A stretch of 39,741 nt of DNA from Lachnospiraceae bacterium (GTDB lineage Bacteria > Bacillota > Clostridia > Lachnospirales > Lachnospiraceae), in the NCBI GenBank assembly GCA_017938485.1, contig JAGBBM010000082.1, positions 1 through 39,741 of the forward strand, in the 5' to 3' direction. The notes beneath the pieces are model-generated. The model ran no database searches, was not told where the DNA came from, and worked only from the letters and a program-made list of their open reading frames with translations. Position 1 is the first letter of the stretch, and every line of letters starts with the position of its first letter. Made by a program: the position numbers and the translations under genes. Positions 4,291 through 7,385 of this stretch are shown piece after piece.

Positions 4291-5301
4291 ATGGGAAGAG
4301 TAAAGTATTATTTTAGTCGACTTATGCGTATGAATTATGGTGCTATGTTTAAGGCTGTAGGCGAGGTACATAAGCGTAGCGGTAAAAATAGAGTGATTAT
4401 ATTCTTTGATATGATTGGCTGTTCTATAAAGTATCAAGCAGGGTATATGGATTACAAGGTGTTTTTCTTTGAGAATCTCACTAAGAAGCAGAGAGCATCC
4501 TTTGTAACTAGGGGTGTCAATAATGCTTATATCAAAAAACTTAACGACCCTACTTATAATCATTTCTTTAGAAATAAAAAAGAATTTAATGAAAAGTTTA
4601 GAGAATATTTAAACAGAGATTTTATAGATTTGGATGTGGCTTCTTATGAGGAGTTTCTTGATTTTATAGAAGCAAATCCTACCTTTATGGCAAAGCCAAA
4701 GGATGGACAGTGCGGCAAGGATATAGAGAAGATAACAATAGACAATAATACTGTTAAGACAGAGCTTTATAATAAGCTTAAAGAAAACAAGCAGCTTCTT
4801 CTGGAAACCTATGTGGTGCAGCATCCAGAGATTAGCCGCTTATTCCCTAAGTCAGTAAATACAATTCGTATGGTTACTATGAGGGTAAATGGTAAGACTA
4901 CCATAGCATACAGAGTAATCAGAATCGGTAATGGAGATAACGTGGTAGATAACTTTAACCACGGTGGTATGTTCTCTGTCGTTGACGAAAATGGTAAGAT
5001 AACTAAGCCAGCTATAGACAAGGCGGGCAATGTATATGAGACTCATCCTGTAACTGGAACAGAGATTATGGGATTTCAGATTCCTCGCTTTGAGGAGGCA
5101 AAAGCTCTTGTTATGAAGATGAGTGAGGTTATTCCTGAGATTGGTTATACAGGCTGGGATATATGTATCACTGAAAAGGGACCTGTAGTTATAGAGGGTA
5201 ACGAATTCCCTGGATATGACGTATATCAGTCAAAGATACATTTAGATGAGGACAACATGGGTCTTAAGCCTATGTTTGATAAGATTATAAAGGGAGCTTA
5301 A
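4291..5301 (+). CDS. ATP-grasp family ligase, sugar-transfer-associated type
   Basis: A 336-aa protein with the ATP-grasp pattern. The central part has an ATP-binding Lys in FMAKPKDGQCGKDI (about residues 131-144), and the C-terminal part has the metal-binding segment PVVIEGNEFPGYD (about 302-314) with the expected Glu and Asn. NTIRMVTMRVNG in the middle also fits the 'sugar-transfer associated ATP-grasp' group (PF14397 type, related to alpha-L-glutamate ligases). Such enzymes join a carboxylate to an amine through an acyl-phosphate. It starts at ATG 4291 behind AGGGAAGG and stops three bases before the MurT-like gene, so it is the first gene of a three-gene operon. That context points to cell-wall precursor or wall-polymer modification, for example adding an amino acid. 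This is inference; the substrate is unknown. Confidence 0.75.
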   Translation: MGRVKYYFSRLMRMNYGAMFKAVGEVHKRSGKNRVIIFFDMIGCSIKYQAGYMDYKVFFFENLTKKQRASFVTRGVNNAYIKKLNDPTYNHFFRNKKEFNEKFREYLNRDFIDLDVASYEEFLDFIEANPTFMAKPKDGQCGKDIEKITIDNNTVKTELYNKLKENKQLLLETYVVQHPEISRLFPKSVNTIRMVTMRVNGKTTIAYRVIRIGNGDNVVDNFNHGGMFSVVDENGKITKPAIDKAGNVYETHPVTGTEIMGFQIPRFEEAKALVMKMSEVIPEIGYTGWDICITEKGPVVIEGNEFPGYDVYQSKIHLDEDNMGLKPMFDKIIKGA

Positions 5302-5304
5302 TTT

Positions 5305-6675
5305 ATGAAGAAACCTATTTCCTTTTATTTTGGCCTTTGGGCCGCAAAGTTCTTTAACCTGGGACTTAAAATATGTGGAAAAAATATACCGTATATGGTG
5401 GGCAATACTGCTGCAAAGTTCTGTAAGGGTTTTGTGAAGTATATGGATACTCCGGGAACTATTATATCTGTTACAGGTACAAATGGTAAGACTACGGTAG
5501 CATCTATGCTTACTGATATATTTAGACATAACGGATACAAAACTATAAATAATACTGGATATAATACATTTCCAGGTATTATAGGAACTCTGATTAAGAG
5601 TACTACCTGGACTGGTAAGACTAAGTATGATGTGGCTATTCTTGAGATTGATGAGATGACCTCTGACAAGACCTATAGCTATATAACACCAGATTATCTT
5701 ATCTGCTGTAATCTTTTTAGAGATTCTGCAAAGAGAAATGCCCATTCAGAGTTTATCGCTGATATTATGAGAGGTGCCATACCGAAGGAAACTAAGCTTA
5801 TACTTAATGGTGACGACATTATATCATCAGGACTTAGAACTAATCAGGAAGCTTATTATTTTGGTATAGACAAGACTGCCCAGGATGTAAGTACACCTCC
5901 AAACATAGCGAGAGACATAGTTTACTGTCCTAAGTGTGGAGGCAATCTCAAGTATGATTTCTTTAGATATCATCATATAGGAAGATGTGAGTGTGAAGCT
6001 TGCGATTACACATCTCCTAAGGTGGACTATGATGTAATTTCCTTTGATGAGGAGAAGATGGTTATGAAAACTCCTACTGGAAATGAGGAGTATAAACTTT
6101 TGCATAGCGCTATATTTAATGTATACAATATGGCTTCCGCTATTACCCTTCTTCATCAATTTGGAATGGATTACAATCAGATAAAATCCTCTATGGAAGC
6201 TATCAAGCTTGATACAACAAGATATGACAAGAAAGTGGTTGCTGGTATAGAGTACGAAAACCTTCTTGCCAAGGGCATGAATGCAGTTGCCTGTTCTAGA
6301 GTTTTTGACAGTCTTAGCAAGGATGTTGTACCTATGTCGGTGGTAGTTCTTATAGATGACTTACACGACAATCTTTACTCCAGTGAATTTATAAACTGGA
6401 TATATGATATGGATTGTGAGTTCCTTGGGGCAGACCATATCAAGCAGATTATATTCTGTGGCAAAAGATGCTATGATTACAAGCTTAGATGCTTGTTGGC
6501 GGGAGTTCCAGAGGATAGAATTTACACCTCCTTTGTAGAGCAGGAGGGGGCAAACTATCTTAAGCTTGATGGTATTGAAAAGGTAGTTTTACTTCACGAG
6601 GTATATCTTTACGATCAATCTATTGAATTGGAGAAAAAGATTATAGATAAAATCCAAAAGGAGGCAGGCAAGTAA
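5305..6675 (+). CDS. murT: MurT-like Mur ligase (lipid II amidation type)
   Basis: A 456-aa protein with MurT architecture. The Mur ligase P-loop GTNGKTT is at residues 58-64. A zinc-ribbon insert has CPKC (208/211) and a CECEAC cluster (228, 230, 233), which is diagnostic for MurT rather than MurC-F. The C-terminal domain is of the DUF1727 type, with the conserved acidic segment WIYDMDCEFL (365-374) corresponding to the region that provides the Asp of the GatD catalytic triad. In MurT/GatD the D-Glu alpha-carboxylate of lipid II is activated and amidated to D-isoglutamine. The C-terminal domain is divergent: the usual LLVKNPAG is LLAKGMNA here. Start ATG 5305 lies three bases after the ATP-grasp stop, and its stop overlaps the next start (TAATG). 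The chemistry may differ from canonical MurT because the partner lacks its catalytic residues. Confidence 0.85.
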   Translation: MKKPISFYFGLWAAKFFNLGLKICGKNIPYMVGNTAAKFCKGFVKYMDTPGTIISVTGTNGKTTVASMLTDIFRHNGYKTINNTGYNTFPGIIGTLIKSTTWTGKTKYDVAILEIDEMTSDKTYSYITPDYLICCNLFRDSAKRNAHSEFIADIMRGAIPKETKLILNGDDIISSGLRTNQEAYYFGIDKTAQDVSTPPNIARDIVYCPKCGGNLKYDFFRYHHIGRCECEACDYTSPKVDYDVISFDEEKMVMKTPTGNEEYKLLHSAIFNVYNMASAITLLHQFGMDYNQIKSSMEAIKLDTTRYDKKVVAGIEYENLLAKGMNAVACSRVFDSLSKDVVPMSVVVLIDDLHDNLYSSEFINWIYDMDCEFLGADHIKQIIFCGKRCYDYKLRCLLAGVPEDRIYTSFVEQEGANYLKLDGIEKVVLLHEVYLYDQSIELEKKIIDKIQKEAGK

Positions 6676-7385
6676 TGATAATAGAGATATTATATGGAGA
6701 GGTCTGTAACCTTTTTGGAGATAGTGGCAATATATCTTATCTTAAGGCGTCTCTTCCAGATGCGACCTGGATTAACACAGGTCTTAATGATAAGCCCTAT
6801 TTTGCAGACAATGAAGTGGATATGGTGTACCTTGGAAGTGGTACAGAAAGTATTCAAAAAAGAGTGGTGGAAAAGCTTTTACCTTTTAAGGATAGAATCA
6901 AGACTCTTATTGATGAGGGAAAGATTATTCTTATAACTGGTAATATGACTGACATACTTTGTAAGACTATAGACTATGGAGATGGAAATAAGATTGATGC
7001 TTTAGGGATTGTAGACTTAGATGCAAAGGTTGAGTTTAAGAATCGTCACAATAGCCTGTTCCTTGGAAAGTTTATGGATATGGACATAGTAGGCTTTAAC
7101 AGTAGATTCTCTCACGCTTACGGAGATATATCCGGCAAGGAATTTATGAAGGTGGAGCGAGGAATTGGAATTAACAGAGATTCTAAGCTGGATGGCATAA
7201 GGATAAATAACCTATATGCCACTCACATAATTGGTCCTCTTCTTCCACTTAATCCACCATTTACAAAATACATTATGGGCTTACTTGGAGCAAAGAGTCC
7301 GGAAGTTGCTTTTGAAGAGGCGTCATATGAGGCCTATAATCAAAGACTCAAGGAATATAAGGACCCAAATACACAACTTAACTAG
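6675..7385 (+). CDS. GatD-like glutamine amidotransferase homologue lacking Cys and His
   Basis: A 236-aa protein of the CobB/CobQ-like class I amidotransferase group, placed as GatD by position after MurT and by the N-terminal LYGEVCNLFGDSGNI. Compared from memory with Staphylococcus aureus GatD, the segment GKIILITGNMTDIL aligns without gaps to the nucleophile loop (GMPGLTICGGYQFL). Gly89 (codon 6939-6941) sits where the catalytic Cys belongs. In NLYATHIIGPLLPLN, Ile186 (codon 7230-7232) replaces the catalytic His of YLHGP; a His occurs two residues earlier. The substrate loop GGG-D-EQ is GSGTESIQ here. Glutaminase activity by the classical triad is therefore not expected. It is coupled to murT by a TAATG overlap and is full length with no frameshift, so it looks maintained, not decaying. 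It may be a structural partner, or bind another ligand. Confidence 0.82.
   Translation: MIIEILYGEVCNLFGDSGNISYLKASLPDATWINTGLNDKPYFADNEVDMVYLGSGTESIQKRVVEKLLPFKDRIKTLIDEGKIILITGNMTDILCKTIDYGDGNKIDALGIVDLDAKVEFKNRHNSLFLGKFMDMDIVGFNSRFSHAYGDISGKEFMKVERGIGINRDSKLDGIRINNLYATHIIGPLLPLNPPFTKYIMGLLGAKSPEVAFEEASYEAYNQRLKEYKDPNTQLN

Follow-up and report, generated by a model that had tools for sequence, protein, structure and literature searches.

The stretch of DNA analysed here, called the window in what follows, comprises the 39,741 nucleotides of contig JAGBBM010000082.1 from a Lachnospiraceae bacterium (assembly GCA_017938485.1). It carries the genes of a MurT-like ligase and a GatD-like protein, the two subunits known from the isoglutaminyl synthase of Staphylococcus aureus and Streptococcus pneumoniae, and we write the second one as GatD' to mark the loss of its glutaminase residues (Table 1). 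The GatD' gene is intact and its start codon overlaps the murT stop codon at 6675, which couples it translationally to murT, as had been proposed in an earlier reading of the sequence (the original prediction). GatD' reaches 32.5 bits against Pfam GATase_3 (PF07685; gathering cut-off 27), and at E 0.01 it matches four PDB chains, all of GatD, some of them titled cobyric acid synthase. It lies below the NCBIfam GatD equivalogs, with 60.6 bits for NF045636 (cut-off 400) and 57.3 bits for NF052463 (cut-off 450). The MurT-like partner scores 64.2 bits with Pfam MurT_C (cut-off 25) and 42.3 bits with Mur_ligase_M, and is likewise below its NCBIfam equivalog NF052464 (153.9 bits, cut-off 800). The predicted P-loop and zinc ribbon are both present in its alignment, together with the Mg-binding Glu and the acceptor-side Asn, the zinc ribbon being of the Cys4 kind.

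Table 1. Positions in the window of the two subunit genes, of the codons discussed in the text and of the neighbouring ATP-grasp gene.
Feature	Positions	Strand	Basis
GatD' (GatD-like, without glutaminase residues), 236 amino acids	6675..7385	+	intact open reading frame; Pfam GATase_3; PDB alignment
Gly89 codon of GatD' (S. aureus Cys94 position)	6939..6941	+	alignment
Asn90 codon of GatD' (oxyanion-hole Gly95 position)	6942..6944	+	alignment
Glu58 codon of GatD'	6846..6848	+	alignment column
Asp93 codon of GatD'	6951..6953	+	alignment column
Arg124 codon of GatD' (glutamine-capturing Arg128 of S. aureus)	7044..7046	+	alignment
Ile186 codon of GatD' (S. aureus His189 position)	7230..7232	+	alignment
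MurT-like ligase, 456 amino acids, P-loop and Cys4 zinc ribbon	5305..6675	+	Pfam MurT_C, Mur_ligase_M
MurT P-loop GTNGKT	5476..5493	+	sequence, alignment
MurT His147 codon, interface loop (S. pneumoniae Glu143 position)	5743..5745	+	alignment
MurT Phe362 codon (S. aureus MurT Asp349, third triad residue, position)	6388..6390	+	alignment
ATP-grasp_ST protein, 336 amino acids, 3 bases before murT	4291..5301	+	Pfam ATPgrasp_ST 177.1 bits

The catalytic site was aligned with the solved S. aureus GatD (5n9m/6gs2), with a single sequence and then with a profile of 65 rows. In both alignments Gly89 falls in the column of the catalytic Cys94 and Ile186 in that of the catalytic His189, with no gap in either motif, so that the substitutions of the original prediction hold against a GatD of known structure. 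Two residues had been named that might have taken over the catalytic roles, and both are ruled out: Cys96 aligns with the conserved Gly of the motif LLG, and His184 with the conserved Tyr of TYLHG. Across the 12 aligned type-A rows (defined below), these two columns hold Gly and Tyr almost without exception. The loss is not confined to GatD'. The S. aureus triad is formed by Cys94 and His189 of GatD and Asp349 of MurT, and the changes D349N and C94S abolish activity (PMC6113224); the S. pneumoniae MurT mutant D355A has reduced activity only (PMC6085368). The window's MurT has Phe362 at the place of Asp349, so the triad is lost in both subunits.

Residues were counted across relatives in 163 unique GatD rows, left from 197 after the removal of 34 that were duplicates or shorter than 150 amino acids. 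They are divided into 35 canonical rows, 115 window-like rows (type A, 105 of them with a MurT), eight of type B, four of type C and one C-like. All 35 canonical rows have the Cys, the His, the MurT Asp349 and the MurT Glu143. When the relatives are scored at the positions of residues 89 and 186, as had been suggested, type A has no Cys at the first (G in 100, S in 12 and N in 3 of 115), a count biased in the 80 loci L066-L145 since these were fetched with patterns, one of them on the Cys site. The His site and the MurT sites of these loci are free of that bias, and the loci from whole-genome searches, which are free of it too, contain the same dead types beside canonical copies. At the His site type A carries L 54, I 36, V 20, T 2, Q 1, N 1 and a single H in 115 rows, and at the MurT Asp349 position D appears in 1 of 105 (L221). 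The ligase machinery of MurT is kept, with the P-loop Lys in 98 of 105 (6 gapped, 1 other) and the four zinc Cys in 101 of 105.

Besides losing the triad, type A has rebuilt the pocket in a conserved manner. Asn90 is N in 114 of 115 rows versus G in all 35 canonical ones, at the place of the oxyanion-hole Gly95 of S. aureus GatD (PMC5871853); Glu58 is E in 114 of 115 versus D in 35 of 35; and position 93 is acidic throughout (E 107, D 8) versus Q in 35 of 35. Across the interface, the MurT position of Glu143, in a loop described for S. pneumoniae (PMC6085368), is H in 92 of 105. The Arg128 position (Arg124 in the window) is still R in 112 of 115, and in S. aureus GatD the change R128A abolishes the glutaminase (PMC5871853). 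In our reading, the type-A pocket may thus still accept an amino acid while being unable to hydrolyse an amide. One type-A GatD', L102:1957-2667 from a termite-gut metagenome-assembled genome (MAG), has Gly at the Cys site and His at the His site; it is nested inside type A, its His having been regained or retained.

Types B and C are two further dead GatD types in the window's genus. Type B (n = 8; loci L022, L025, L026, L030, L031, L033 and others) has G at the Cys site, no His, G or N at Asp349 and a retained Glu143, and it has neither the new pocket letters nor EctB, the transaminase discussed below. Type C (four rows and the C-like one) has G at the Cys site, no His, a retained Asp349 and His at 143; its loci L023, L028 and L029 share N90, E58, His143 and EctB with type A and have the P-loop GSSGKG.

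Among 61 genomes (the window's own and 60 relatives), 28 have matches, at 36 places. Of the 30 places first read, 29 hold dead copies of types A, B and C, 28 of which belong to the window's genus; the remaining place, in another family, is canonical. Wider samples gave matches in 49 of 294 genomes of the order, some of these being longer CobQ-like proteins, and in 152 of 293 of the class; 30 loci from the order sample (four of them repeats) and 28 from the class sample were read. A scan of named genomes with the type-A alignment yielded 213 relatives, of which 80 were retained, named by NCBI as Bacillota (77), Actinomycetota (2) and Bacteroidota (1), the last three being perhaps mislabelled MAGs. 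In a tree of 75 MurT+GatD rows, trait columns included, type A forms one clade (Shimodaira-Hasegawa-like approximate likelihood ratio test, SH-aLRT, 100), and a single branch separates A, B and C from the canonical rows (SH-aLRT 99). The ratio of nonsynonymous to synonymous substitution rates (dN/dS) of GatD' is 0.03-0.12 in 13 comparisons of close relatives within the genus, the window protein not being among them (its nearest relative found is 49% identical). Type-A GatD' is under purifying selection, and a decay specific to the window is ruled out by the clade-wide state, the tree and the dN/dS values. Natural MurT-GatD' fusions exist in eight loci (seven different genes, as L016 equals L132) with open frames of 725-754 amino acids, one of them in Eubacterium ruminantium ATCC 17233.

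The window's genome (G000; 2.43 Mb, 88% complete) was searched for a canonical copy, as had been advised. None was found, and at 88% completeness this absence is unproved; what turned up was a second dead pair at G000:C2:8774-10863 (L035), whose GatD' is 44% identical and has lost both catalytic residues, with Gly at the Cys site and Val at the His site. A tandem second pair also stands in Frisingicoccus caecimuris (L092:7709-8857), where its MurT lacks the zinc ribbon, has an altered loop and carries Asp instead of the conserved acceptor-side Asn.

Neighbour genes were clustered and the 30 largest clusters considered, and one family stood out directly downstream of the pair: EctB, the diaminobutyrate:2-oxoglutarate transaminase that makes 2,4-diaminobutyrate (DAB). 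It lies there, on the same strand, in 24 of the 106 unique type-A pairs for which some 1.5 kb of DNA was available, and in none of 15 canonical and none of three type-C pairs; no type-B pair had enough DNA. Two of these downstream genes were sampled and gave 562 and 585 bits (NCBIfam cut-off 552). At the level of genomes, with EctB called at 500 bits or more in 79 genomes of our own choice, it is present in 20 of 26 with type A, 3 of 4 with type C, none of 8 with type B, none of 16 canonical and none of 25 without GatD. In the order sample, EctB occurs in 9 of the 14 genomes that have type A or C versus 2 of the 280 others (Fisher 2.7e-12, uncorrected for kinship); nine of these 280 have unread GatD matches. 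The window's genome has EctB at G000:C84, with 557.3 bits against a TIGR02407 cut-off of 552.2, and 11 of 19 chosen named genomes have it at 500 bits or more, among them E. ruminantium, C6A11, MSJ-21, Anaeromassilibacillus senegalensis and MH27-2. The available DNA of the 37 clostridial EctB loci, some with flanks of only about 1.5 kb and some entered twice, showed no EctC (ectoine synthase). Two EctB genes in genomes where no GatD was found, G134:C12:37785-39014 (L336) and G097:C11:26564-27715 (L335), likewise have no EctC in their flanking DNA, the latter gene reaching the contig end. At L103:5695-6960, EctB stands directly upstream of a GatD' with no MurT immediately ahead of it, and a second GatD' with its own MurT follows further along.

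The ATP-grasp protein upstream of the window's murT, for which a sequence search of structures at E 0.1 gave no solved relative, belongs to the same association. Its relatives (E below 1e-50) occur in 17 of 23 EctB genomes versus none of 56 others, four of these 56 having weaker matches (E 6e-23 to 6e-36). They lie directly downstream of the pair in 11 of 106 type-A cases, adjoin EctB in L153 and L155, and in L340 one stands upstream of MurT as in the window, judging by coordinates. Genes of the alanine-racemase family were also met near the pair, in L131 (above cut-off), L102, L076, L162 (just below) and L138 (by similarity). What had been described as a change in one protein now extends over a whole clade, affects both subunits and comes with linked genes.

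On this basis we propose that MurT-GatD' of the type-A family with EctB joins DAB, and not ammonia, to a cell wall precursor, a claim for which we see the chances as evenly balanced. GatD' would have been converted from a glutaminase into a non-hydrolysing subunit of a MurT-type ligase dependent on adenosine triphosphate (ATP). MurT would activate a carboxyl group of the wall precursor as an acyl phosphate, by homology the alpha-carboxyl of D-glutamate (D-Glu) in lipid II, and the amino group of a diamino acid, most likely DAB made by EctB, would attack it in place of glutamine-derived ammonia; DAB comes first among the candidate nucleophiles on account of the EctB link. The rebuilt GatD' pocket (Arg124, Glu58, the acid at 93 and Asn90) and the MurT loop with His147 might hold DAB or let it in, roles that we assign from the alignment. 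The upstream ATP-grasp protein, or the alanine-racemase-like protein in other genomes, may then extend or racemise the added residue. That a GatD without activity can still serve MurT as a partner follows from earlier experiments, in which MurT was inactive alone and required GatD even with ammonia as the donor (PMC3266927, Table 2), and in which MurT with S. aureus GatD C94G amidated lipid II from ammonia at pH 8.5 (PMC3266927). The predicted bond is known in Clavibacter, where D-DAB joins D-Glu and D-Ala (PMC9603630).

The place of DAB in the peptide was considered as well. The motif DNPR in MurE is a mark of meso-diaminopimelate (meso-DAP). It was found in 14 of 18 EctB genomes, from which DAB is probably not stem residue 3 and is disfavoured there as a candidate; position 3 is probably still meso-DAP, with DAB placed elsewhere. 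Of the four EctB genomes without a DNPR call, G087 and G010 have partial MurE frames, and the motif is absent in G065 and G130. The best MurE matches of G065, G130 and G116 (L201, L210, L208) are without DNPR, those of G065 and G130 being very long-branched, and these genomes may add a different third stem residue.

A separate loss of the Cys is found in Actinomycetes. A sample of 196 genomes was taken from the class of G611, itself a MAG under the name Propionibacteriaceae with a type-A copy (G at the Cys and H at the His site); 105 of the 196 had GatD matches and 67 were read. Counted from printed alignments, 60 of the 67 are canonical: they have the C and the H, and Q at position 93. Six others, read in the same way, are without the Cys and all have Glu at 93: group X (G710, G730, G803, G821) kept the His, and in group Y (G720, G795) it is replaced by Gln. 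EctB at 500 bits or more is present in three of four genomes of group X, in none of the two of group Y, in G611, in 12 of 47 canonical genomes and in none of 20 without GatD. The three EctB loci of group X have no EctC within the 16 kb examined, and the five read of the 12 canonical EctB loci all have it, as expected of ectoine makers. A MurT-GatD pair with intact Cys and His is also carried by a plasmid of Leifsonia shinshuensis (L279:6724-9673), adjoining an M15 family peptidase flagged as VanY-like by PLSDB. A broader proposal, which we put forward tentatively and consider rather doubtful, is that MurT with a glutaminase-dead GatD might be the missing ligase of type-B peptidoglycan bridged by DAB or another diamino acid, attaching the bridge residue to the D-Glu alpha-carboxyl of lipid II. 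This ligase would have had two or more origins from an amidotransferase, one in gut Clostridia and another in Actinomycetes, each through a Cys-to-Gly loss and the same Gln-to-Glu change in the pocket.

Several observations weigh against DAB ligation. EctB was not found in six of the 26 type-A genomes, nor in Coprococcus catus and F. caecimuris, so that DAB is not the donor everywhere and the EctB-negative members of type A need another one. The window genome's own EctB lies outside the MurT-GatD' operon. In many genomes, among them that of the window, a single EctB accompanies two pairs, which suggests two acceptors, two donors or two steps. Type C has EctB yet retains Asp349, and a pair test of type A against EctB corrected with the MurE tree offered only three independent pairs, none of them contrary, and had no statistical power. 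The ATP-grasp protein tracks EctB more strictly than MurT-GatD' does and could be the DAB ligase itself, and DNPR is no marker of the system, as 11 of 12 EctB-less genomes share it. In the Actinomycetes, EctB is also present in 12 of the 47 canonical genomes and missing from group Y. Groups X and Y may, at a guess, be Microbacteriaceae with type-B walls, and this uncertain taxon counts on the same side.

The original prediction had offered three options, namely amidation from free ammonia, delivery of another nitrogen donor or a different product, and the genomic context favours another amine donor, DAB. Free ammonia keeps its precedent in C94G, the same Cys-to-Gly change as in the window: MurT-GatD' could still make isoglutamine from ammonia, with GatD' only as the structural activator that MurT requires, as the natural fusions would also suggest. 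The hosts of type A live in the ammonia-rich gut and rumen. Nevertheless, neither wild type nor C94G used NH3 at pH 7.5 (PMC3266927), and since this explanation accounts neither for the conserved N90, E58, acid 93 and MurT His147 nor for the EctB and ATP-grasp links, we judge it unlikely. Our opinion is somewhat similar of the transfer of some other amine, be it a diamine, glycine, a D-amino acid or a diamino acid other than DAB, where DAB would serve certain lineages only or enter at a linked step; this we also find improbable, and slightly more so. The type-A genomes without EctB, the many genomes with two pairs, the alanine-racemase-family genes and group Y all speak for it; on the other side, among the 30 largest neighbour clusters no other gene recurs directly beside the pair the way EctB does.

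Attachment of DAB by the ATP-grasp protein, to the wall or to a polysaccharide, would leave MurT-GatD' a different step of the same pathway. The restriction of its close relatives to EctB genomes, their adjoining EctB without MurT in L153 and L155 and the name of the Pfam family, 'sugar-transfer associated', fit this idea. However, six of the 23 EctB genomes carry MurT-GatD' and give no match to the ATP-grasp protein at 1e-20, weaker matches are found in EctB-less genomes, and the ATP-grasp gene lies directly downstream of the pair less often than EctB does (11 versus 24 of 106), so we hold this explanation to be quite improbable. Finally, the missing catalytic residues could make GatD' the functionless product of a decaying pseudogene; the low dN/dS, the fully supported clade, the conserved new residues and the fusions already contradict this, and its probability is negligible.

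The DAB ligase proposed here can be placed among known systems. With the isoglutaminyl synthases it shares the two-gene unit, the P-loop, the Mg-binding Glu, the acceptor-side Asn and the zinc ribbon, and with canonical GatD the family, the arginine at position 128 (Arg128) and the G-P..L..N stretch that follows the His site. Unlike them, type A lacks Cys94, His189 and MurT Asp349, has exchanged Gly95 for Asn, the Gln at 93 for Glu or Asp and MurT Glu143 for His, and is linked to EctB and the ATP-grasp gene. MurC-MurF also drive the addition of amino acids to a wall-peptide carboxyl with ATP, acting on uridine diphosphate precursors and without a GatD partner. The loop His of type-A MurT presumably lies at a different place in the loop from the Mg-binding His of MurC-MurF. 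Both nevertheless have a His in that loop, and that of MurC-MurF binds Mg and is missing in canonical MurT (PMC6085368). The laboratory mutant C94G shares the Cys-to-Gly change, and its ammonia reaction needs GatD and not the glutaminase (PMC3266927); type A, in contrast, is natural and clade-wide, has also lost the His and Asp, and has a rebuilt pocket. Clavibacter type-B peptidoglycan (B2gamma, with a D-DAB bridge) contains the DAB-D-Glu product predicted here, although it is a wall type and not an enzyme, and the word ligase is absent from the text describing it (PMC9603630). In the literature searched on DAB, type-B walls, EctB and MurT, covered mainly at the level of abstracts, with preprints and most subscription papers outside, no named gene was found for the attachment of a diamino acid to D-Glu. 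For MurT and GatD in Lachnospiraceae, a review was the single paper met. A paper on pseudomurein covers MurT-GatD trees, and the words glutaminase and cysteine are absent from the accessible part of its text (PMC11915815); a table in a review gives no wall type for several genera, Roseburia and Coprococcus being two of them (PMC11382707).

If DAB ligation by MurT-GatD' is correct, an enzyme would be named for attaching a diamino acid to the D-Glu of the wall peptide, and the label 'glutamine amidotransferase' would be wrong for type-A proteins. It would also be a case in which a glutamine amidotransferase became an amino-acid ligase through loss of its triad in two genes together. For the organisms themselves, Clostridia of the gut and rumen would be expected to have a wall chemistry not yet described, and many bacteria of these habitats would build their cell walls in a novel way.

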